Below, piece by piece: positions 14,150 to 30,100 of a DNA stretch of 64,000 bases. A program made the translations under genes and the position numbers. The notes under the pieces were generated by a model. The model saw only the letters and a program-made list of their open reading frames with translations. It had not been told where the DNA came from and ran no database searches. The stretch covers positions 5,537,031 to 5,601,030 of the forward strand of contig CM034142.1 of assembly GCA_019914995.1 (NCBI GenBank). The letters are read 5' to 3'. Position 1 is the first letter of the stretch; the number at the start of each line of letters is the position of its first letter. The DNA comes from Acanthochlamys bracteata. Taxonomy: Eukaryota; Streptophyta; Magnoliopsida; Pandanales; Velloziaceae.

Positions 14150-14381
14150 TTGAATAACAATGATCTGCTGCTTCTCCTCCTCCGCGTATGATCCCTTCTG
14201 CACCGTTCGCCGCCCTACGCCGTTCTCCGGCGCGCCATGGCGCTGCTCTCGCAGGCAACCACAGCGATCATGCCGGGACAGAGCGTGGTACAATCCCGAC
14301 GGCAGGCGGGTCCCACCGGCGCCCGTCAGGCGTTGGATCGAAGCTGAAAATCTCTGTTCGGTTCCCTTCTCCACAAGCGGT
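14150..14381 (+). other. GC-rich exon-like island ending in a strong splice donor
   Basis: About 200 bp of clearly higher GC content stand out from the AT-rich surroundings. Two overlapping frames are open: one from the Met at 14160 reads VRRPTPFSGAPWRCSRRQ and then YNPDGRRVPPAP; the other starts at 14188. The island ends at a consensus donor, AAGCG|GTAAGAA, near 14381. This is the look of a first coding exon. The Arg/Pro/Gly-rich peptide is compatible with the disordered N-terminus of plant CCR4-like exonucleases, so it could be exon 1 of the gene at 27-41 kb, but the peptide has no diagnostic motif. An exon of an unrelated lost gene is equally possible. A 24-bp segment just upstream (AACAATGATCTGCTGCTTCT-) is duplicated at about 14086 and 14157. 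Confidence 0.35.
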
Positions 14382-14589: not shown

Positions 14590-15060
14590 CCAAACACCAA
14601 TAACAACAACAAACTAAGCCTGTATCCTACTTGAGTGGGGTGGGCTATATGAATATGTTTTTTTTCTTTCTGTTCGATAATAAATTAGATTATCTAATCC
14701 TCTAAACCCTTTGCCACCACTCTAGGCCAAGCTAGTTTTTGTCTACCCTTTGTTCTCCTAAATTGTTTGATAGAATCACATCATTTTTATACATTGCAGC
14801 ATTTTGATATCTACGCAAGACATGTCCGAACTACCTAACCCTACTTTTCCTTAGCTTGTTTTTTATCGGCCCAAAAACTGTTTGTTGGCTTATATTTTTA
14901 TTTTATATTTTGTATATTCTAGTGACTTACTCATCCATCTTAGCATTCTCATTTTCTATACGTTTTATCTTATGGACATTTTAACATTTGATAGCCCAAG
15001 ACTCATTACTCTATAACATTAAAGGCCGAAAGGTGTTCTATAAAACCGACATTTATTTTA
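14590..15060 (-). mobile_element. RTE-type LINE 3' end, truncated
   Basis: On the plus strand the segment begins with CAATAACAACAACAAACTAA and then a GAGTGGGGTGGGCTATATG motif. Read on the minus strand this is the familiar plant RTE 3' terminus, a CCCACT-containing segment running into a (TTG)n tail. Upstream on the minus strand, at about 14930, MRMLRWMSKSLEYTKY-like sequence matches the MRMLRWM motif near the C-terminus of RTE reverse-transcriptase ORFs. Stops are frequent. Only the last few hundred bases of the element remain, as expected from 5'-truncated target-primed insertion. Confidence 0.7.
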
Positions 15061-17014
15061 TCGTTAAAGGATTTTCTTATTATATAAAATTCTTGTAGCA
15101 CCTCGTCATTTCATTAATTATTGTTTAATCTTATGTATAAGATCTTATTCAGTTCTTCTTTATGAATAACCAAACCTAAATATTGTGATTTATATCTCTC
15201 ATGAGTCATGTTTGTGGTTTCTTTTCTGAATTTTTGGACAATTGTTTAATTCTTGTCCAAGTTTGTGAAATTCAAGTTAATATATCTATGTGTGTGTGTG
15301 TGTGGAGATTCATTTATTTTCTATTTTTCTGAAAGGTTTTGGGTAGTTTAATTGTTGTGTTATTACTACGGTTGGGAATAAACATGTTTTCTAGTGAAAT
15401 CAAGAGCAGAAAATATTCAGGAATCAGGTGACTTGCCATGAACTTGTAGATAGCTACTGCTAGAATATGCTGATCACTATGTTTCAAATTAAACACAAGG
15501 ATATTTGTCGAAGTAATATGGAGCTGGAAAACTATTTGAAATATCAGAGATGTTTAAATAGTTAATAAAAAATACAAATAGATATTAATCTTAAAGTTGA
15601 ACTGAGAAACATAATGCAAGTTAAATTCAATACATGTTGCAGTAAAACTAAAAAGAGGAATTAATGGTAAATCAGAGGTTGATAGTTTGGAAAACTGTAA
15701 TTAATATCCTCCTAGATACTTAATTGGGGTGTAATGCAAGGTGGTCCTCAAACCTCTCCTAGAGATACACTAATCCAAGCTAAATGTAGCATGGAATGGC
15801 ATTGGTCTTAGAATCTAGTTCGCAATTGTTAGATTAGAATAGATTTGCTCGAAAAGCAAGATAGACCATATTTTTTGTGAATGCAACAAAAGTGTAGAAC
15901 TAGCTTTTATAACTGAAATTGATTCAGCACCCATAATCGAAGTGGAGGAGACAATATATAGTATGGGCTCAATATGAGATTGAGACTTTATTTGGTTTGA
16001 GAGGAAATGAGGGAAAAGAAAATATTCTCTTTTTATGGTTTGGTTGAGGAGAAATAGGAGGAGAAAAGAAAAGAATTCTCCTTCTAACATGATAGAGATT
16101 GGACTAAACCAGTATTCATCCATTGGATTAATTGATATTAAGTTAGACTAGAGTCTAATTATTTACGTGTTTTAATTGCTCTAATTTATGTTAAGTTAGA
16201 CTAAGGTTCAATTAGTTGGGAGTTTTAATTTGTTTAGAAGTTTCAGTTGTAACAGTTGTTGGTATTCTAGTTTCATTTGGTTTAGAAGTAGTATTAGGAT
16301 ATTTAGGAAGTTAGCAAATTTATTTAAAGAGTTGTAAATTTGTACTCATGCTCGATTAACGAATTCTTGAGTCTTTGTTAAGAATAAGGAGGTGCTTACT
16401 CTCTTTAACGAGTTATAGGTGTGGTAAAACCTTAATCTTCGAGATGTAGACTCGCTCCAATGAGTTGAAGGTGAAATAGTGGCCTAAAATCCTATATATT
16501 ATTTGGATTTTCTTTCAAGAGGGAGTGAAAAGTTAATTTCTTTAAGTAAAATAAAATTGTCTCATCACTTTGAAATCAATAATATCTCTCTATCATATGG
16601 GCAGAGTCTTCAATAGACCAAACTGGTGCTGAATGATGTTTCTTGGGAAGCCTTAAACTTCTTTAGGACAAAGAATCCTAAGCTTTCTAGTTGTCTTTAA
16701 CTTTCTTCAAGACTCTTAAGATCCGCTTAAAGATAAAAAATCTTAAGTAATAGTGTAGATGAGTATACAAGCTTGTTAATTATGACTTATTGTAGGACTA
16801 ACTCTTCAAGCCACTTCGATTTTTCCCCCTGCGCTAGTCGAAATCACCTAAGTCAATAAAACTTAAATCTTTGAATCAACTTCTTATTTTGCAAATATAA
16901 GGGATGAATGAAGTTTAGCTGGTTTGCTTCCATGAGTTTTGAACATAAATACTTGTAACAAAAATTAACATAGAGTGGGGTTTGCCCCTATCCCCAAGAA
17001 ACTAATATATCTCT

Positions 17015-17095
17015 CTATATATATATACATATATAGATATATATATATACATACATATATATACATATATATATATATATACATACATATATGGT
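17015..17095. repeat. (TA)n microsatellite in the left arm
   Basis: Alternating TA/CATA sequence lies exactly between the outer and inner parts of the left arm. A larger (TA)n tract sits at the mirror position of the right arm (23836-23942), so the tract was present before the arms were duplicated. Confidence 0.85.
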
Positions 17096-17499
17096 AACCG
17101 CTATGTACACATTGTGCACTGTTCGTGCATATTGTGTACATTAATTCTCAGCCGTTCGATCACGAGCGAGCGGCTGAGATTCAACAAACCACGGACGCGG
17201 GTTTGATCCCGTTCGAAGGGCACGCTGGTCATTTCGCGTGCCATTCTGATGGGATTTTTTTTTTTCTTTTTTCTATTTTCATTTCTTCCCTTCACGCGTT
17301 CGTCTCTCCCTCCGGGCTCCCGCGATCGCCCGGAGGGAGAGACGAAACCCCTAGCACCGAATGTTTCTCCTAAAATCATCTTATTTTTTCGATTTTCAAA
17401 CCCATTTTCTCTTTTCAAGCAGCCGATTGAAACCCCTAGCACCGAATCCCGCGGCGAAACATCGTCGTTACCGGCCGACGATCGTCATTAGGAGCACAA

Positions 17500-17966
17500 A
17501 AAGTTCTCTTCCCCAACTTCTTCTAATCGTGCTCGATTGATCAATTTCATCAATCGCCGCACTGAGCACATTATTCGCTGCGGGATCCGGTAAGCTGAAA
17601 TTTTTTTTTTTATTTTTAATTACTTTCATCTATTTCGTTCTTAGTTGATTAATTTCATCATGATTCTACTAATTTGCATTCTTTTTTATATTTTTCTTGA
17701 ATTTTTGTGTTTTTTCAGCTCGGGTGGCTCTGAGAGTGGGGTAGAAGAAGATGCGGGTATTTCAATTTCAATTGCAGGCATTTGATTTCGATTTCTGTTT
17801 GACGTCAATTACCTTTTTTCATCTGTTTGATTTTAATTCCAATAGAAACAAAATTTTCATATCATTCCTATGTTTTCTGCAGATGAACGGATATAGTAAA
17901 GATAAGATGAAGACTGGAACGGAAGAGCCTATTGCTTTTGTTTTAGATTTTTTCTTTCTTTCATGA
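17500..17966 (+). promoter_or_regulatory. Exon-like leader sequence in the left arm, pointing into the element
   Basis: Within the left terminal repeat, consensus splice sites define a leader pattern: GGATCCG|GTAAGC at about 17591, TTTTTTCAG|CTCGGG at about 17719, and CTGCAG|ATGAACGG at about 17882 followed by the short frame MNGYSKDKMKTGTEEP that closes at 17966. The mirror copy in the right arm points toward the transposase gene, where it could serve as promoter and 5' leader. This left copy points into the core from the other side, with only repeats ahead of it. Transcription is inferred, not shown. Confidence 0.45.
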
Positions 17967-18089
17967 TTTTAGGAATTCAGTTGTGGAAGCTGTCCAGTGA
18001 AAATGGACACTAGAAACTGTCCAGTGAGCGTCCAATTTGTTGATAAGGTTCTTTCTATGTATGTTTTTAAGGCTGTCGATGTTAATTAA

Positions 18090-18730
18090 ATGGTCCAGTG
18101 AATGTTTTATTTGATTGTAATGGTTCAGAAAGTTGTTGGCTTGGCATTTGAATGGAATGTAAATGGCTTTGACATTTGTAGTGGATGTAATTATTCTCTT
18201 CACGTGAATGCATCAGTGAATGTTCAGTGTAGAATGCACATGTTCTGGATGAGTGTATGTTTGAACAGAACAGAATATTTGAATGCATGCCAATGTTCTG
18301 TTTGAGTGAATGTTTAAATAGAACAGAACTTCTGAATGCATCACTGGCTATATTCAAGTGGAGCTAAATGTGCAGTTCAGTGAATTTGAATGAAAAATTT
18401 AGGTGAATGCATCATTTTGAGCTATGTAATTGTAAATACAATGCTCAAGTGGAGCTATGTTTAAGTGAATGCAAGTGTGAGCTATTCAAGTGTGAATGCT
18501 CATTGTGAGCTATGTAATTGTAAATGTAATGCTCAAGTGGAGCTATATTTAAGTGAATATAAGTGTGAGATATGCAAGTGAATGTAAGTGTGAATGCTTA
18601 TTGCGAGTTATGTAATTGTGAATGTAATGCTCAAATAGATCGGGTTTTAGTGAATGCAAGTGTGAGCTAATGCAAATGAAGTTCAAATATGAATGCAATG
18701 CTCAAGTGAGCTATGATTAGTGAATACAAG
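18090..18730. repeat. Subterminal minisatellite of the MULE core
   Basis: Degenerate repeats built from AAGTGTGAGCTATG, GAATGCTCATTGTGAGCTAT, TGTAATTGTAAATGTAATGC and TCAAGTGGAGCTAT motifs run for about 350 bp (18380-18730). They are preceded by TGAATGCATCA-type repeats and paired ACAGAACAGAAT segments. Related TGATGCATTACA-type repeats in the opposite orientation lie at 22690-22850 beside the right arm, so these are paired subterminal repeats of the element. Confidence 0.65.
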
Positions 18731-18744
18731 TGTCAGGCATAGAT

Positions 18745-19612
18745 TTTTAGATCTTTTTTTTTCTATTTTTTCATTTAATTGGTTTTTTTATTATTTTTCT
18801 TTCACTTTTTTTTCGCTGTTTTTTTTCACTTTTTTATTTCACTGCTTTTTCTACTGTCTATTTTTCATTGTCTTTTTTCAATGTTTTTTTTTCCCACTTT
18901 TCCCATTTCACTGCTTTTTTCATTATTTTTTTTCAATTCTTTTTCCACTATTTCTTTTTCATTTTTATTTTACTTCTTTTTTTCACTTTTTTTTTCATTG
19001 TCTTTTTTCACTCTTTTTTCCCATTTCACTGTTTTTTTCTCTTTTTTTTTATTTCATTGTTTTTTTTTCATTTTTCCCATTTTACTGTTTTTTTCTTTTT
19101 TTACTTCTTTTTTCACTGTTTCTTTTTTATATTTTTATTTCACTGTTTTTTCCATTTTTTTTCATTGTCTTTTTTCACTATTTTTTTTTCTTTTTTCCCA
19201 TTTCACTGTTTTTTTGTCTTTTTTTTATTTCACTATTTTTTTTTCATTTTCCCATTTTACTGTTTTTTTCTTTTTTTTACTTCTTTTTTCACTGTTTCTT
19301 TTTTATTTTTTTTATTTCACTGTTTTTTTCCACTTTTTTCCATTGTCTTTTTTCACTGTATTTTTCATTTTCTTTATATCACTGCTTTTTTTTTCCACTT
19401 CATTTTTCATCGAGTTTTTTCACTGTTTTTCTTTTTCATTTTTTCCGTTTCACTGTTTTTTTCTTATTATTTTTATTTCACTGCTTTCTTCCACTGTATT
19501 TTTTCCACATTTTCCATTTCACTGTTTTTTTTAATTTATTTCACTGCTTTATTCACTGTTTTTTTTTCACTGTTTTGGCTTAACTTTTTTTTTATTTCAC
19601 TTTAATTTTTTT
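18745..19612 (+). repeat. Pyrimidine (T/C)-rich minisatellite, TTTCACTG(T)n motif
   Basis: About 870 bp are made almost entirely of T runs separated by CACTG, CATTTCACTG and CATTGTC islands. One block starting CCCATTTTACTGTTTTTTTC at about 19076 recurs almost unchanged at about 19251, showing a higher-order period near 175 bp. The absence of A-starting stop codons keeps three overlapping frames open for 245-287 codons of Phe/Ser/Leu; these are artefacts of composition and not proteins. On the minus strand the tract is an A/G-rich sequence immediately downstream of the transposase gene. Confidence 0.85.
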
Positions 19613-19752
19613 ACTTTTTGGAAATGCACATAGAAAGTATAATAATTGAACATCACAGTTGCATATAACAAATTGTTCCTATACAGTGCAACTTAATAAG
19701 ATTGGATACAACATCCAAATGCTTTCAAAAATGTCAAAATAAATTCATCATC

Positions 19753-22173
19753 TTACTCTAAATTAATAGCTAGCTCTTCTTCTTCACTAGTATCTTCGCA
19801 TTCACCATCATCTCTATTTTTGTCCTCAGCATAATCTCTTCCAAAAACTATCAATTAAAATTGATAACAAATGTTAAGAAAAAAGTTTGAATTAAAAAAA
19901 GAAGGTATATTACTAATCAAAGCTAAGGAAACAATTATACTTACTTGTCTTATTCTTTCTATTTGGATTTTCAGGACAATTTCGTTTGTCATGTTGAACA
20001 CCATACTTGTTACAGTACGTGCATTTTCTGCCTATCTTTGCTTTTGCTTTTACAGTGGCTTTCTCCAAACCTCCTTTTATTCTATTATTACTCTTATAAT
20101 TTGTTCCTTCTTTTTTTCTTCCCTTAGTTTGTGAGATATGAGGATTCAATAGTAAGACTTGAGATGCATAAACTGAAACTTGTAAATTATCATTGGCAGT
20201 ACATGAGTTGGCAACTGGAATGCTAATATGGACATTAGTGTTCTTTACTTCTCTAAGCCGCTTTGTTGTTTCTTCTAATGCTTTTAATAAAATTTTATAC
20301 CCCTCGTCGGTTTCAACGGCTTCGTAAACCAATTGGTTGCAAACCATCTGTAGATGTGTTGTTCTCAGTAACTCAACATTTTTATGCCCACTTACAGAAC
20401 AACAATCATATTTAGCTCTATATTTATTTGCCCCCTTCTTCCAACGCTGAAGATTAAAGTGATTTGGTATTTCTATATCTCGATTTAGAAAAACCTTCAC
20501 AAGATGTCCACAAGGAATCCCCATAAACTCAAAAAGTTTGCATTCACAGTTACCTTTCTTTGTTGTTGGATTGAACTTCACCTTCCACTCACGCAGATCA
20601 CCTTCCAGTCTAGACTTATAAATATAAGTCGTGTAGCCGTCACTATCCTTTTCATCGTCATGCAGAACATACTCGATTTGAGCTTTTTCAAATTCTTGTT
20701 TGAACCTATCATACACATCTCTCGTGTACAATTTTGCTGCACTTTTTAAGATAAATGCATTCCTTTCAACAATGCGACACGAGTGTTCACTCGTATAATC
20801 TTCTTTCTTTTCTTTCTCAGTAATTTTTTTCAAGCACTTTTCATTCTTCAACACAAACTCTCTAAGAGTTGTTGTCGACCGGAAAATTTTTTTGTAAATA
20901 CCATTCATACCTTCGGAGCGTCCGGTAGTATTCATACCGGCATAGAAAGTATCCAAGTGATAGACGGGTGCCCATTTTTGTCTAATCTCATATATTTCTT
21001 TGAGCCACATATTCTCATGCAATCTATATGTACACAGTAATTTTTTCCACTGAATCTCAAAAATGCTAGGAGTATAACTTTCTCTAATATAGCTCTTCAT
21101 GTCTTTTTTGAATTTTGAGCTTTTGAAATACACATGTGAAAATTTTTCGGCAAACTTTTTCATAATATGCCACAAACAAAATCTATGACGTGTATTAGGG
21201 AATACCTTCGCAACAGCTGCAGTCATAGCTCTATCTTGATCTGTGATAATTGAACATGGAGTATTACCGTCCATAGCTGCAAGCCATGTCTCAAAGAGCC
21301 ACTGAAAGGATTCTTCTGTCTCATCTAAAAGTAGTGCACAACCAAACTGGATTGATTGCATATGATGGTTGACTCCAATGAATGGTGCAAATAGCATTTC
21401 GTACACATTCGTGCGGTATGTAGTGTCAAAGAATACCACATCACCAAAATACTGAAACTGTGTGCGTGATCTACCATCTATCCAAAAAAAATTAATTGCC
21501 CTTGACTCTTCATCCATCTGTATTGCATAAAAAAAATTTGGGTCTTCTGTACACTTTCTTTTAAAGAAATTCAAAGCTGCGGTGCCATTGATAGGTTTTT
21601 TGTATTCCTTCGAGCGACACAAATGATTCCAACAGTCTCTGTTATCAAAACCATGCTGAGGTCCGTCAAATATATCAGCAATCTTAGTGACGGGTATGTA
21701 TCTCGAAATGAATCGATCAATATTTTAGCTGCAACGGGCAAATTTTTGCAAACAGGCATACGCATTCTTTTAGCCGGGCTAACTAGGTCATGATTGTGCT
21801 GACCTTCATAACCTACCACTTTCCACAATCCATTAATTTGCTTTTTCACTCTCATTGTTGTAGAGCATCCGCATTTCGCCGTACTTGTGTTTCTGTTTCT
21901 TTTTACTTCTTTCTCAAATCCATCATTTGTCTTTTCCGATCTCCGGCTTCTGTGGTGTCCATAACGATCACAAGTCATTTGACAGATAGTGACTTCATCA
22001 GAATGAGATCATGTCTTTTCCGTAGATCGGGTAACAGCACTAAATCCCACGGCTTTCCCATAATTTATATAGAATTATTTTGCAACTTCAAGACTTTCAA
22101 ATGTCATCCCTAAGCACGGTGACTTATCGTTCTCGTTGCGTATGTTTAGAGTTGGAAGGAAAGAAGAATCCAT
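19753..22173 (-). pseudogene. FAR1/FRS-type MULE transposase, two in-frame stops and one frameshift
   Basis: The start Met at 22173 follows a TTTTCAG acceptor-like site; the protein begins MDSSFLPTLN. An N-terminal FAR1 zinc-binding domain (GMTFESLEVAK, then AKCGCSTTMRV and GQHNHDL) runs from 22110 to about 21780. The MULE transposase core (FFDTTYRTN with the first Asp, SIITDQDRAM with the second Asp, CLWHIMKKF, then TTGRSEGMN with a likely catalytic Glu) spans about 21430-20880. A SWIM finger (CECKLFEFMGIPCGHL) lies near 20500 and a zinc knuckle (CTYCNKYGVQHDKRNC) near 20000. A 97-bp intron (19848-19944, GTAAGT...GATAG) joins in phase to a last exon encoding an acidic tail (CEDTSEEEELAINLE). 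Defects: TAA at 22077-22075, TGA at 22011-22009, and a frameshift at about 21705-21716 between the FAR1 part and the core. Apart from these the reading is excellent, so inactivation is recent. FAR1/FHY3-type plant transcription factors derive from this family, but the terminal repeats and stops mark this copy as a transposon. Confidence 0.88.
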
Positions 22174-22849
22174 TTGACAATCTGAAAATTCAAAAAAAAA
22201 AAAAAGTGTAAGCAACATCGTCTCTTTGTCAACAGTGAAGGAAATATAGGATCGTGAATTTCATGTCTTGGACGTGAAATACCTGTGTTGAAGTGTGCCA
22301 TTGGAGAGGAAGAAGAGAAGATAATGAAAAAAATAAAATAAAACAGAGATGAATAGAGAGCTGAACAGAGAGCAAAAACAGAGAGCTGCATCCTTCCCGC
22401 GCAGGAACAGAGAAGAAAAAATTTCAGCGGGAAAGAAATGCATGTTATTGCTAATGATATAAATACCCTTTATAAGTGATGTCTTCTCTGTTCTGTTTTC
22501 TTCTTTAGTTTCTCATCTTTCAATTTTTTCTTTGTTACGTGAAAGAGTAACCCAGATATGTACATCCGTTCCATGCACAGCTATATTGAAATCTTAACAA
22601 TCCATTGCATTGAAAACTATATGTAATCTCCACCATATCAAACAAGTTTTGAACAAAAACAGAATTTTTATTTCATATAACATTACATTTCATTCGCTGA
22701 TGCATCAGAAGCCCAATTGGAACAAAAACAAAACCTTTTATTTAACATTACTTCATCGATGATTACATTCACTGATGCATTACATTTTTCAAACAAAAAC
22801 AACACATTTACATAGCATCATCTTCACTGATGTATTACAATTTTCAAAC
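22174..22849. other. 5' region of the MULE gene with subterminal repeats
   Basis: This interval separates the transposase start from the right arm. At 22690-22850 it contains imperfect tandem units of about 60 bp, CACTGATGCATTACA followed by TTTTCAAACAAAAACA, which mirror repeats next to the left arm. It probably holds the intron joining the leader in the right arm to the TTTTCAG acceptor at about 22182. The AT-rich 22440-22560 segment shows no clear core promoter. Confidence 0.4.
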
Positions 22850-23850
22850 AAAAACATACAGAAAGAATTTTCACTGGAAAGAACCTTATCAACAAACTGC
22901 ACGCTCACTGGACAGTTTCCAGTGTCCATTTTCACTGGACAGCTTCAACAACTGAATTCCTAAAATCATGAAAGAAAGAAAAAATCTAAAACAAAAGCAG
23001 TAGGCTCTTCCGTTCCGGTCTTCATCTTATCTTTACTGTATCCGTTCATCTGCAGAAAATATAGGAACGATATGAAAATTTTGTTTCTATTGGAATTAAA
23101 ATCAAACAGATGAAAAAAGGTAATTGAAGTCAAACAGAAATCGAAATCAAATGCCTGCAATTGAAATTGAAATACCCGCATCTTCTTCTACCCCACTGTC
23201 AGAGCCACCCGAGCTGAAAAAATACAAAAATTCAAGAAAAATATAGAAAAGAATGCAAATTAGTAGAATCATGATGAAATTAATCAACTAAGAACGAAAT
23301 AGATGAAAGTAATTAAAAATTAAAAAAAAAATTTCAACTTACCGGATCCCGCAGCGGATAATGTGCTCGGTGCGGCGATTGATGAAATTGATCAATTGAG
23401 CACGATTAGAAGAAGTTAGGGAAGAGGACTTACGGTTTTTGCGCTCCTAACGACGATGTTTCGTCGCGGGAATCGGTGCTAGGGGTTTCGATCGGCTGCT
23501 TGAAAAGAAAAAATGGGTTTGAAAATCGAAGAAATAAGATGATTTTAGGAGAAACATTGGCCGGCAATCGCCAAATCGTGCCGAGATCGATCGGGCGCGG
23601 GCGATCGCGGGAGCCCGGAGGGAGAGACGAACGCGTGAAGGGAAGAAATGAAAATAGAAAAAAGAAAAAAAAAAACTTAATCCCGTCAGAAGAGCACGCG
23701 AAATGACCAGCGTGCCCTTCGAACGGGATCAAACCCGCGTCCGTGGTTTGTTGAATCTCAGCCGCTCGCTCGTGATCGAACGACTGAGAATTAATGTACA
23801 CAATGTGCACGAACAGTGCACAATGTGTACAAATGTATATATATATATTA

Positions 23851-23922
<72 letters not shown>

Positions 23923-25647
23923 GTGTATATATATATAGAGATATATTAGTTTCTTGGAGATAGGGGCAAATCCCACTCTATGTTGATTTTTGTTATAAGT
24001 ATTTATGTTCAAAACTCATGGAAGCAAACCAGCTAAACTTCATTCATCCCTTATATTTGCAAAATAAGAAGTTGATTCAAAGATTTAAGTTTTATTGACT
24101 TAGGTGATTTCGACTAGCGCAGGGGGAAAAATCGAAGTGGCTTGAAGAGTTAGTCCTACAATAAGTCATAATTAACAAGCTTGTATACTCGTCTGCACTA
24201 TTACTTAAGATTTTTTATCTTTAAGCGGATCTTAAGAGTCTTGAAGAAAGTTAAAGACAACTAGAAAGCTTAGGATTCTTTGTCCTAAAGAAGTTTAAGG
24301 CTTACCAAGAAACACCATTCAACACCAGTTTGGTCTATTGAAGACTCTACTCATATTATAGAGAAATATTATTGATTTCAAAGTGATGAGACAATTTTTT
24401 TTACTTAAAGAAATTAACTTATAAACTTTCACTCCCTCTTGAAAGAAAATCCAAATAATATATAGGATTTTAGGCCACTATTTCACCTTCAACTCATTGG
24501 AGCGAGTCTACATCTCGAAGATTAAGGTTTTACCACACCTATAACTCGTTAAAGAGAGTAAGCACCTCCTTATTTTTAACAAAGACTCAAGAATTCGTTA
24601 ATCGAGCATGAGTACAAATTTACAACTCTTAAAATAAATTTGCTAATTTCCTAAATATCCTAATACTACTTCTAAACCAAATGCAACTACAATACCAACA
24701 ACTGTTACAACTGAAACTTCTAAACCAATTAAAACTCCCAACTAATTGAACCTTAGTCTAACTTAACATAAATTAGAGCAATTAAAACACGTAAATAATT
24801 AGACTCTAGTCTAACTTAATATCAATTAATCCAATGGATGAATACTGGTTTAGTCCAATCTCTATCATGTTGGAAGGAGAATTCTTTTCTTTTCTCCTCC
24901 TATTTCTCCTCAACCAAACCATAAAAAGAGAGAATATTTTCTTTTTCCTCATTTCCTCTCAAACCAAATAAAGTCTCAATCTCATATTGAGCCCATACTA
25001 TATATTGTCTCCTCCACTTCGATTATGGGTGCTGAATCAATCTCAATTATAAAAGCTAGTTCTACACTTTTGTTGCATTCACAAAAAATATGGTCTATCT
25101 TGCTTTTTGAGCAAATCTATTCTAATCCAACAATTGCGAACTAGATTCTAAGACCAACGCCATTCCATGCTACATTTAGCTTGGATTAGTGTATCTCCAG
25201 GAGAGGTTTGAGGACCACCTTGCGTTACACCCCAATTAAGTATCTAGGAGGATATTAATTACAGTTTCCCAAACTATCAATCTCTGATTTACCATTAATT
25301 CCTCTTTTTAGTTTTACTGCAGCATGTATTGAATTTAACTTGCATTATGTTTCTCAGTTCAACTTTAAGATTAATATCTATCTGAATTTTTTATTAACTA
25401 TTTAAACATCTCTGATATTCCAAATAGTTTTCCAGCTCCCTTATTACTTTGACAAATATCCTTGGGTTTAATTTGAAACATGGTGATCAGCACATTCTAG
25501 CAGTAGCTATCTACAAGTTCATGGCAAGTCACCTGATTCCTGAATATTTTCTGCTCTTGATTTCACTAGAAAACATGTTTATTCTCAACCGTAGTAACAA
25601 CACAACAATTAAACTACCCAAAACCTTTCAGAAAAATAGAAAATAAA
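22850..25647. repeat. Right arm of the 10.3-kb palindrome
   Basis: Inverted copy of 15313-18068. The inner part (about 22850-23830) ends in GCACAATGTGTAC, mirroring the left terminus. It contains the leader pattern on the minus strand: CCG|GTAAGTTG at about 23341, TTTTTTCAG|CTCGGG, and CTGCAG|ATGAACGG at about 23050. The outer part (23943-25647) mirrors the LTR-like left outer arm. Similarity ends at 25647. Just beyond, GAAAACATGTTTATT (25651) repeats a segment inside the arm (about 25568), a microhomology at the junction. Small indels and substitutions (roughly 5%) separate the arms. Confidence 0.9.
23836..23942. repeat. (TA)n microsatellite in the right arm
   Basis: Long pure and interrupted TA/TG run at the mirror position of 17015-17095, between the inner and outer halves of the arm. 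It is longer than the left copy, as expected for microsatellite drift after duplication. Confidence 0.85.
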
Positions 25648-25659
25648 CTGAAAACATGT

Positions 25660-25832
25660 TTATTTCTGTCATTTTGATCAAGTGACCAGATGAAAATAAA
25701 TTCGTGGTCCGATTGAGCTGAAATTTTATGGGTACGTTTATAACTCATAATTGTTCATATCCAATGGTGGAGATTAGATTTGGAGGTAATTCCGGCCATA
25801 AATCGAAAAGGGAGTGCTCGAGAGTGCCCATA

Positions 25833-25873
<41 letters not shown>

Positions 25874-25908
25874 ATATATATTAGCTTTATGGGGATAGGG
25901 GCAACCCG
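25660..25908. repeat. Diverged half-copy of the adjacent foldback MITE, with a (TA/TG)n run
   Basis: The segment TCGTGGTCCGATTGAGCTGA through TCCAATGGTGGAGATTAGAT and GGGAGTGCTCGAGAGTGCCC resembles the right arm of the 25909-26275 element (TTCGTATTTCGATTGAGTTA, ATAACGGTGGAATATTGAAT, GGGGGTGCCTCATAGG). It appears to be a second, incomplete copy. A (TA/TG)n tract occupies 25832-25881. Confidence 0.5.
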
Positions 25909-26275
25909 CTTTTAGAGGCACCCTTGAGGCACTCCCCCTGTTTAGATTGCTCAAAATTCAATCTACACTGTTGAATATGAAAAATAGATTAGAATTTTGT
26001 GAAAAAATTTCAGCTCAGTTGGAGTATGAATCGACTTTCATCCGGCATTTTGATTAAGATTAGAGAAAAGGAAAAAAACTAAAACAAATATATTGCTTCT
26101 TAATCAAAAAGTTAGATGGAGGTCGATTCGTATTTCGATTGAGTTAAAATTTTTTCCATCAAAATTCCGACTCATAATCCTCCATATATAACGGTGGAAT
26201 ATTGAATTCAAAAGCATTCTAAGTAGGGGGTGCCTCATAGGTGGCCCTAAAAGGTAAGAGTGTCCCTGTTTCATA
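25909..26275. mobile_element. Foldback MITE (long-palindrome element)
   Basis: The left half starts CTTTTAGAGGCACCCTTGAG and the right half, read on the other strand, starts CTTTTAGGGCCACCTATGAG. Similarity continues inward almost to the centre (left AATTTCAGCTCAGTTGGAGT, right complement AATTTTAACTCAATCGAAAT; left GGCATTTTGATTAAGAT, right complement CTTTTTGATTAAGAAG). The element is thus about 365 bp with almost no loop and no coding capacity. The transposase family that moves it is not evident and no target-site duplication was resolved. Confidence 0.65.
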
Positions 26276-27169: not shown

Positions 27170-30100
27170 ATAGGTTTGTCGTTGTTTCTTATAACATCTT
27201 GGGTGTCCATAATGCATCAAACCATCGCGATCTTTATTTGGATATTCCTTCAAGTGCAATGGATTGGAACTCACGAAAAAGACTAATTTGTGAAGACATT
27301 ACAAGATGGAAGACTGATGTAGTATGTCTTCAGGCAAGTATGCCTTACATGATAGTAGTTCCATGTAGGCATATGCAGTTTCTTTGTTTAATTGTCACTA
27401 TCTGATTATTTTTATATGGTTCCTCTACTCTGACAAATGTTGGCTGCTTTTTTTTTCTTAGGAAGTAGATAGATATTATGACATTTTGAACATCTTGAGC
27501 AAACTAGGCTATGTTGGAAGGTTTAAGGTATTTATTACTTCATGGGAGAAATTCTTTTTTGAATTTCTATAAGTTTCTTATTTAGAGTTACTTCATCCTG
27601 TCAAGAGGCGTACTGGGGAAGCTAGAGATGGTTGTGCAGTGTTTTGGAAAGAAAAACGGTAAAAGCCTCTTCACATTCTTAATTTTTGTTACTGCAAGTG
27701 TTTTCTTGGCTAAAAGTGTTTATTATTTTAGGTTTCGTCTAATTGAAGATGACAGCATTCAATATTCAAAAATTGGCTTACGAGATAATGTTGCTCAGTT
27801 GCTTGTTTTTGAGGTACCAATTGGCATTCTTAATCATTTTCTTTCAATTATCTTTTCACACTTGACGTATAACAATACTTTTTAAGTTTTTAATTTGCCT
27901 TTTTACCATTTTCAAAGAACAATGCTGCGACTTCTAGTTTTAATTTTATTTTATTTTAGTTTTGTGGTTTGTTTTGTTTACCAAAGCAAGATAGTTATGT
28001 GTTTCTTGAGAATGGACTTTGTGTAAGCCTAGTTTGTTGTCCACTGTTAGACATGTTGCTCAGTTCTAGTTAAAGTTTTGGTAACGATACTATTTAGATT
28101 ATTTTGCTTTGCTAGTAGGGTTTGAACAATGTTTGATATATGCAAGTGTTGAACTCAAATTACAACAGTAGGTGAAAAATGGATGCATTATTGAAATGTA
28201 ATGAGAAGGCCCATTTAACATGGGTGCAAGTAGACTTATAAGTGGCTCATAACTAATGCTAAAATAAGTTAAATACGAATGTAACTACTTCCACCATAAA
28301 AACAAAAATGTGCAGGTAATACAACTACCTAAAGAAGTGGGCATGTAATGGAACTACTCCAGCCTACTTATAGAAGAAAAGAAAAAAGAGGCACACGGAG
28401 GATGGCAGAAATATTCTGCAAAGGAGAAATGAGAACAGAGAAAAGAAAAGATGGAGAAGACTATGGTGAAGTCCACGCAAGACCATCTCTCCTTCCATCC
28501 TTCGGACTCCATACACACCTCTTTCTGGAGACAAAAGAAATGCATTAAAAGAAGTTTGTACCATTCTTCCTTGCATTCGCACTCAATTATGTCTAGTGGT
28601 AGCTCTAATGACCTTACTGAAGTTTTATCAAGTTCGGCATGAGCTCGATTATCAGTTATCGGATCTTTTGCTCAAAGGGACTGGGTGTTACCATCTGATC
28701 TCACTTCAAAGGTCATGCATAATTGATGCTTTGCCGTCTAGTCCATTACTCCAAATAAGGATAACATAATTTGTAATTTCATCTGCTGTCACGATAGGGA
28801 TGCGGTGGCACTACTGCCCAACCCATAATTATTGATGCTGTGATGCATTCGTCCCCGTCCATCAAGGATTAGGAGGTTTTCATCTCTATCTGAAGTTCCT
28901 TCAAACAAGGATGCAGTGATACATTCATTCGACCTACTGTTGATGTGGGGTTTAGCCTCTCCTTCCCACTAAAAGAAACAAAGAACAGATGGTTTAGGGT
29001 TTAGGCTTTGCCATCTTCTTCGAGACTGCATTTGTTCTGTTCGTCCCCTACGTTTTGCAGCTTTGAAGAGAATTATTTGATATTCATTAAGATAACAAAA
29101 AAATGATCCTCATCATAGCTTGGGTACATGAGTCTTCTTTCCAACAAGCGTTCACATAAATTTTTAGCACTCTCTGTTAGAAAGCACAATTGAACAGGAA
29201 GTGCGCAATCTTTCTAATTTGCTATAAGTATGGTTGGCAACCTCAATTTCGGTGATCAATTTATATCAGTGAAGATATCAGATATGAAAACCATTAATTT
29301 GTTGTATACAAGTCATCTTTCCAACGAGTACTACTTGTATGAACACACCTGGTTCAAAATATAAAATAATGAACAGACAGTGTACAGTCTTTCAGCCTGC
29401 TGGAATGCCGCGAAAATCTGCAATTTCGGTGATCAATCTTCCTCGGATCGGACATTGAATGACAACTCGACATCTTTGTGATGTTCCTGTGTGAGTCTTC
29501 TTTCCAAGGAGTGCTCATGATCTTATCACACCGAGTTTGAAAGATATCGATCTTGGAATCGACAGTCTGCAGTCTTTCAGTCTGCACCTCAAACATCTAC
29601 AACTTGGTGATCAATCCTGCCCAGATCAGGGTGTGGATACACAAACCGACATTTAGTTATGTTCCTTACTGAGTCATATTTCCGTAGAGTCCTAATAGGT
29701 GATCTTAGGACACCTAGTTTGAAAGATATGAAGTTTTGAACTGAAAGTGTGCAGTGGTTCTACTTGCTGAAAATGCTGTAAGCAACATCAAATTCGCTTA
29801 ACAATTGGAACCAAATCAGAGGTATTACGTGTAAACGCCCCAAAATGTTATGCATATTCTTGCTTCTAATGAGTACTGTTATGTGATTTTAGCACACTGG
29901 GTTTGGAAGATATGAGTTTTGAATCGATAGGCCCCGGTCATTCTGCTTGCTAGAAATACAGTAACCAACAGTGACTTGGAGTGCTTGGAAGATCTAAGAT
30001 CAGGATAAGCAAACTAACACTACCATATTTTGCATAACTATATCCTCTTTCAAACAACCTCTTATACTCATTCCTAACCCATGCGGTTTAAAAGATATGA

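Follow-up and report, generated by a model that had tools for sequence, protein, structure and literature searches.

We consider it likely that a single local templated repair event, of the fold-back or template-switch kind, acted at the right end of a MULE transposon in Acanthochlamys bracteata and copied the left terminal repeat, together with its host flank, to that end in inverted orientation. The element lies in the 64,000-nucleotide stretch of DNA analysed here (the window), and this reading draws on the two long arms, the lack of any other full copy of the flank, the indistinguishable divergence of flank and repeat, a 12-bp patch at the inner edge, a filler word at the outer junction and a missing foldback half.

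The palindrome and the element within it

The palindrome formed by 15313-18055 and, inverted, 25647-22877 is real and lies within a CCR4-like gene, in intron 1, which is 12.8 kb long. The features of the locus, in positions of the window, are the following:

14160..14379, plus strand: exon 1 of the CCR4-homolog gene
15313..17005, plus strand: outer left arm X, host DNA outside the element and probable template; full copies in the two arms only
17006..17092, plus strand: left (TA)n target microsatellite, 87 bp
17093..23852, no strand: MULE proper, 6,760 bp
17093..18055, plus strand: left terminal inverted repeat; the family tip GGTAACCGCTAT is intact, and the final 12 bp (18044-18055) belong to left-type interior
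19913..22008, minus strand: transposase, with MULE (PF10551) and SWIM domains in frame 19913-21724 and a FAR1 DNA-binding domain in another frame, 21571-22008, as an intron or a frameshift would explain
22877..22888, minus strand: inner switch point; the innermost 12 bp of the right arm (TAAGGTTCTTTC) are left-type interior, beyond which the interior is right-type
22877..23852, minus strand: right terminal inverted repeat, probably copied from the left one; tip altered to GGTAA then tatatatatatacattt instead of CCGCTAT
23853..23945, minus strand: right (TA)n tract, 93 bp, probably copied from the left one
23946..25647, minus strand: outer right arm X', which repeats 15313-17005 in inverted orientation
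25650..25664, plus strand: 15-bp filler of the outer junction (GAAAACATGTTTATT), repeating 25569-25583 exactly
25663..25835, plus strand: right half of a high-copy foldback element; left half and loop not found alongside
25836..25904, plus strand: (TA)n, then TTAGCTTTATGGGGATAGGGGCAA (25881-25904), which corresponds in inverted orientation to X at its inner end
27170..27333, plus strand: exon 2 of the same CCR4-homolog gene

A preliminary description had estimated arms of about 2.75 kb matching at roughly 95% by eye. This was borne out by self-BLAST, which paired 15309-18055 with 25652-22877 in inverted orientation at 94.4% across 2,791 columns (E=0), and a global alignment running inward from 15326/25647 gave 2,598 identical columns out of 2,786. 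The outer edges given there, 15313 and 25647, coincide with the outermost word common to both arms (15313-15331 and 25629-25647), while the inner ones, 18068 and 22850, had to be corrected to 18055 and 22877. A single 4.8-kb interior stands between the arms. The palindrome, about 10 kb long, could fold into a hairpin; no Rfam match at gathering cut-offs was obtained in the whole window.

The MULE transposase domain PF10551 was detected with E=1.3e-32, along with FAR1 and SWIM domains. The terminal repeats, at about 0.96 kb, are long and common to family members (28 other loci examined), and correspond to the inner 0.95 kb formerly taken as the true terminal repeat; similarity ends at or within the (TA)n tract in all 28, three of them ending before the tip. 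The tip itself, once placed at about 17103, lies at 17093 (GGTAACCGCTATGTACAC). A TA run was found no more than 16 bp from GTACACA in 17 of the 21 other ends scored, these being the ends that passed a tip score cut by which 7 of the 28 other loci were removed. The element, itself sitting in (TA)n, the usual target of the family, belongs to the (TA)n-targeting MULEs. Because the insertion lies within (TA)n on both sides, no 9-bp (8-11 bp) target-site duplication is recognisable; the earlier remark that none is visible was correct, but the absence is uninformative. The left and right (TA)n tracts differ in detail.

Origin and age of the outer arms

When the 195.5-Mb genome (557 contigs) was searched, X was recovered in full in the two arms only, with no third full copy on any contig. 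All else that the search returned was 17 fragments of 64-157 bp at 71-84% identity, and the proposal that the outer sequence is an LTR-like dispersed repeat was rejected. When at most two mismatches are allowed, the inner end of X, read on the minus strand (TTAGTTTCTTGGGGATAGGGGCA), matches only at 25881 in the right arm and, elsewhere, at two weak places. Searches with the flanks for an ancestral empty site returned none, their matches being dispersed repeats that cover parts of both flanks.

The preliminary description had left the choice between exceptionally long terminal repeats and an inverted duplication that took in both terminal repeat and flank, perhaps through template switching, and had proposed looking at where the homology of other copies starts. 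None of the 28 other loci has similarity left of 17005, that is, outside the (TA)n tract. Among the seven two-ended copies compared, palindromic flanks were present only in the one at the palindrome locus; five of the other six were without any flank match and one had a 76-bp match at 80%. Genuine terminal inverted repeats of 2.75 kb would account for inverted homology that continues unbroken through the (TA)n tract, but with similarity ending at or inside that tract at every other locus, and with the outer arm in full only here, this option is refuted in this genome and we give it practically no credence. The second option fits an outer arm that is local and absent from the other 28 loci. The preliminary description is thus partly supported and the present account stays near its second option; the direction of copying (probably left to right), the junctions and the equal-age test are new.

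Comparison of divergence along the arms, also proposed earlier, did not distinguish the outer arm from the terminal repeat. Counting substitutions only, 41 of 1,674 sites differed in the outer arm (15326-17000; 2.4%) and 31 of 881 in the terminal repeat (3.5%; p=0.13), the latter taken without the tip and the rearranged stretch 17333-17367. Non-CpG substitutions numbered 36 and 24, respectively (p=0.41). Since the divergence of both parts is not distinguishable, outer arm and terminal repeat were probably duplicated together. In addition, changes common to the left and right repeats and absent from seven sibling ends, among them a 5-bp deletion, were observed, and the right terminal repeat was probably copied from the left one. 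Likeness of the repeats was rejected as proof in its own right, because the pair of the element at 7.56 Mb of C7 is at least as alike (25 mismatches in 1,150) and has no copied flank.

Long palindromes are hard to assemble, and a haplotig placed in inverted orientation, or a chimeric read with its join at the MULE, might in principle produce such a structure. We regard an artefact of this kind as very improbable: the outer arms differ by indels in addition to the 41 substituted sites, the interior is present once, no contig carries a third full copy, and the outer flanks belong together, since exons 1 and 2 of one gene enclose the palindrome.

Junctions and a possible course of the repair

At the inner junction, 12 bp of left-type sequence stand just past the right repeat and are followed again by right-type interior, and therefore copying probably ran from left to right, a direction that draws on this patch and a few siblings. 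The patch is absent from all four alignable right-type sibling ends (C1, C6, C4 and C5), five further right-type loci having been left out of the comparison for their weak alignment. As for the five left-type sibling ends, the exact 12 bp occur in one (C1) and with one difference in two (C4 and C16); C17 (4.37 Mb) is without the stretch and C5 resembles a right end. The left arm's TTTGTTGA, which adjoins the 12-bp stretch, is right-type in appearance as well; to explain this, an older conversion or retained ancestry has to be assumed.

At the outer junction, GAAAACATGTTTATT had been suggested as a microhomology at which templates were switched. Because both copies of the word persist, 81 bp apart, a templated filler is more likely than an annealing site; the filler test was passed by 23 of 5,000 positions drawn at random from the window. 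The junction falls at the centre of a foldback element whose partner half was looked for alongside and is missing. Such a partner lies 20-36 bp away in 45 of the 48 plus-strand halves counted among 98 transcribed rows, the other three also being without one. The right flank as a whole is a series of foldback units with (TA)n between them. Alternative transposition of the MULE, either between sister chromatids or with reversed ends, might also generate an inverted duplication, and Ac/Ds reactions are described in the excerpts of PMC4270019 and PMC3744419 as yielding duplications and composite insertions. Nevertheless, neither outer edge (15313 or 25647) shows an element terminus, and the duplicated flank is short with filler-like DNA at its far edge, which makes this origin extremely unlikely.

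For the repair event that we favour, we infer the initiating lesion, the pathway, the direction and the singleness of the event. A FAR1/Jittery-type, (TA)n-targeting MULE would have entered the (TA)n tract in intron 1 of the CCR4-like gene, a tract that probably belonged to a foldback element and lay in its left arm. Its right end may later have broken or stalled, by excision or by replication trouble at the hairpin, with loss of the original right terminal repeat. A free 3' end in the right interior would then have started synthesis on the left terminal repeat, which is homologous and inverted, and been extended outward in a single tract of about 2.75 kb that took in 12 bp of left interior, all of the terminal repeat, the (TA)n and, from the left flank, 1.7 kb. 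The resulting end would have been joined, by way of the 15-bp templated filler, to the right-hand foldback hairpin at its base, and the left half and loop of that hairpin would have been lost.

The palindrome might instead be older than the insertion. Breakage in the foldback's left arm would have allowed the (TA)n to fold on itself and to prime copying of the left flank, so that X-(TA)n-X' arose, and the MULE would have inserted later near the centre, the likeness of its terminal repeats having a separate history. (TA)n is self-complementary as well as being the target of the family, fold-back inverted duplications are on record (excerpt of PMC3907307), and the product would look nearly identical. 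However, this order needs the coincidences of an insertion near the centre (87 versus 93 bp) and of terminal repeats indistinguishable in age from the flank arms, as well as an independent left-to-right conversion bearing the 12-bp patch, and we judge it unlikely.

Related systems and significance

Judged by description, the element resembles MuTAnT of Medicago, which together with AutoMuTAnT comprises (TA)n-inserted MULEs and alongside which maize TAFT and rice Micron are named (partial text of PMC4486113). There, too, the MULE lies in (TA)n with TA repeats on both sides, so that target-site duplications are hard to determine, foldback non-autonomous relatives exist, and 36 of 218 copies are in introns or UTRs, the element here being intronic. 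The transposases are also comparable, Jittery-like in MuTAnT and with FAR1/MULE/SWIM domains here. In contrast, the MuTAnT terminal repeats are shorter (mean 47 bp versus about 0.96 kb), and no case of a flank copied to the opposite side is described in that partial text. The right flank, also by description, is reminiscent of the SaTar microsatellite-targeted MULE arrays (excerpt of PMC5907723).

The human fold-back inverted duplications share with our locus an inverted copy spaced from its template and inverted homology at the switch (excerpt of PMC3907307). Their spacers measure 766-70,466 bp (median 3,428), compared with 4.8 kb here, but they are large chromosomal duplications, whereas here 2.75 kb were rejoined locally. 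Among the matches listed from the open-access literature, by their titles and abstract beginnings, none describes a terminal repeat plus flank copied onto the opposite end. The partial text of a paper on multi-TIR MULEs (PMC3310237) is free of the words "palindrom", "gap repair" and "gene conversion", and both of its "flanking sequence" passages concern methods.

The layout also recalls Mu killer of maize, an inverted duplication at a MULE with both terminal repeats derived from one element end, for which a hairpin RNA made by read-through from a flanking gene has been proposed (excerpt of PMC3440606). Mu killer duplicates transposase sequence, whereas at our locus the duplicated parts are terminal repeat and host flank, on either side of one interior; the arms stop at 18055 and 22877, short of the transposase. 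It is conceivable, although we think it rather doubtful, that the palindrome is a natural master silencer of the Mu killer type, in which CCR4-gene pre-mRNA extending across the intron would form a hairpin of about 2.7 kb and, once diced, give rise to small RNAs that match the terminal repeats of family members elsewhere; a product of aberrant repair would then hold the (TA)n-MULEs in check.

A transposon end and its host flank have seemingly been copied jointly onto the opposite end, with both junctions still readable, and the case separates giant terminal repeats from copied flank, which are easily confused in repeat annotation. Without transcription, it would be a neat case of a transposon that underwent templated repair. 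In this intron a hairpin RNA could form and, if transcribed, the palindrome would be a natural counterpart of Mu killer in a small genome. If the silencer reading were true, MULEs would more generally be able to give rise to such silencers through fold-back between their terminal repeats with host flank copied along.

Palindrome and gene setting

In a self-comparison of the window, 15309-18055 matched 25652-22877 in inverted orientation with 94.4% identity over 2,791 columns, and the outermost word common to both arms was found at 15313-15331 and 25629-25647. The arms are therefore 2,743 and 2,771 bp long and enclose an interior of 4,821 bp, with outer edges at 15313 and 25647 as proposed in the preliminary description. 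On either side lies an exon of a gene homologous to CCR4:

14160-14379, CCR4-homolog exon 1, left of the palindrome
27170-27333, CCR4-homolog exon 2, right of the palindrome

The best named protein relatives of this gene are from flowering plants. Since the exons join in frame and homologous proteins span both (e.g. Dillenia, 44% identity over 100% of the query; Dioscorea, 51% over 96%), the palindrome lies in a 12.8-kb intron, and its outer flanks are original neighbours. Flanks that are two exons of one gene argue against a misassembly. Exon 2 is apparently followed at 27334 by a GC donor (CAG/GCAAGT) instead of GT, and a dispersed repeat of about 590 bp occupies 14593-15184 (at least 39 matches, 70-76%).

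Extent of the MULE and of the outer arms

The genome searched comprised 195.5 Mb in 557 contigs, the window being part of contig 17. The start of the terminal repeat had at least 52 matches (40 of 70 candidates scored), and 30 loci were returned for comparison, including both ends in the window itself. None of the 28 others resembled the left arm at positions below 17005, beyond the (TA)n tract, so that a family homology starting at 15313, as had been considered, was not found; in three (L017, L025, L028) similarity ended short of the tip, the outermost bases of the element. The tip GGTAACCGCTATGTACACA is common to near relatives, with one or two changes in some. Because other loci match no further than (TA)n and near relatives diverge past the tip, the MULE proper is delimited at 17093-23852 (6,760 bp). 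After 7 of the other loci had been dropped for a poor tip score, 17 of the remaining 21 ends directly adjoined a TA run; the family thus targets (TA)n, as described for MuTAnT (PMC4486113). Within such a tract a 9-bp target-site duplication cannot be recognised. The coding capacity of the element is as follows:

Transposase of the MULE: MULE and SWIM domains in one frame, FAR1 domain in another frame

A pyrimidine-rich tract with internal repeats at 18744-19619 holds three open frames that overlap one another (251-288 codons); they are Phe/Ser-rich, of low complexity and probably non-coding. The right tip (23822-23852) is altered, retaining GGTAA with tatatatatatacattt in place of CCGCTAT, which may leave this end immobile.

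Among 19 genome matches of the outer 1.7 kb, only the two arms are full-length, the remaining 17 being fragments of 64-157 bp. Palindromic flanks were present in one of seven two-ended MULE copies compared, that of the window; for the other six, no flank-to-flank match was found in five and 76 bp at 80% in one.

Origin of the palindrome

Left and right differ at 41 of 1,674 sites in the outer arms and at 31 of 881 in the terminal repeats, a difference in divergence that is not significant (p=0.13; p=0.41 with CpG transitions excluded). Taking 7e-9 substitutions per site per year, the age of the arms would come to about 1.7 million years. The element's two repeats have changes in common, including a 5-bp deletion, that are absent from 7 sibling ends, and those of the contig 1 sibling show 59 differences in 909 sites. 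With 25 mismatches in 1,150, one pair on contig 7 (7.56 Mb) equals or exceeds the window's repeats in similarity, so similarity of repeats alone is no proof. The left repeat carries a private rearrangement at 17299-17366 with the appearance of a small template switch: it holds the nearby CTCTCCCTCCGGG stretch copied in inverted orientation, and CCCCTAGCACCGAAT a second time. In the right repeat the family sequence is unchanged there.

Half of a high-copy foldback (at least 215 genome matches) makes up the right flank from 25663 onward. Among 98 of these matches, mainly higher-scoring ones, 48 plus-strand halves start at the centre, and 45 of these have an inverted partner 20-36 bp away. For the half at 25663 partner and loop are missing and the arm stands there instead; the best inverted counterpart of this half within the window covers 65 bp of the following unit (26004-26068) with 74% identity. 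Arm and half-foldback are separated by a probable 15-bp filler, GAAAACATGTTTATT (25650-25664), identical to 25569-25583; a match of this quality occurred at 23 of 5,000 random places. The arm's inner end and the far side of the half-foldback share, in inverted orientation, (TA)n and about 25 bp, and a pattern for the latter part of these, allowing 2 mismatches, matched the three places concerned and two weak ones. This is most simply explained by an insertion of the MULE into the left arm of the same foldback. Foldback units run with (TA)n between them through 25663-26270, reminiscent of SaTar arrays, and the family is common: a first look gave 1,437 candidates in the genome, of which 40 were scored.

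In our preferred account, the right end folded back or switched template onto the left terminal repeat, copying proceeded outward into the left flank, and end joining with filler closed the repair. The main rival, a flank palindrome around (TA)n made before the MULE inserted, draws on the ability of (TA)n to fold on itself but requires additional coincidences. The direction of the favoured switch was judged from the sequence just inside the repeat in left-type and right-type sibling ends. Right-type ends on contigs 1, 6, 4 and 5 show TTGTTGAC and then a TGGCAGTGTC-like stretch just inside the repeat, a comparison of alignable ends from which 5 further right-type loci were dropped for too weak an alignment. 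Among five left-type ends, TAAGGTTCTTTC is exact on contig 1, has one difference on contigs 4 and 16 and is lacking on contig 17, while the contig 5 end resembles a right end. In the window's right arm, TTGTTGATAAGGTTCTTTC comes first and right-type CAGTGAAAATTC after it; this arm thus contains 12 bases of left interior, so copying probably ran from left to right, the right arm probably being a copy of the left with the switch at 22877. In the left arm, TTTGTTGA has a right-type look, for which we assume either an older conversion or ancestry that was retained; the direction is the least secure part of the account.

Possible hairpin RNA

Pairing between the arms is perfect in 38 stretches of 21 bases or more, totalling 2,069 bases, and 28 of the 66 other loci fetched, a set with some overlap among its members, contain 21-base words of the terminal repeats. 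For Mu killer, a small-RNA route is proposed and both terminal repeats derive from one element end (PMC3440606); such an origin would apply here if the right repeat is a copy of the left. We hypothesize that, given intronic transcription, the arms could produce small RNAs against the MULE family.
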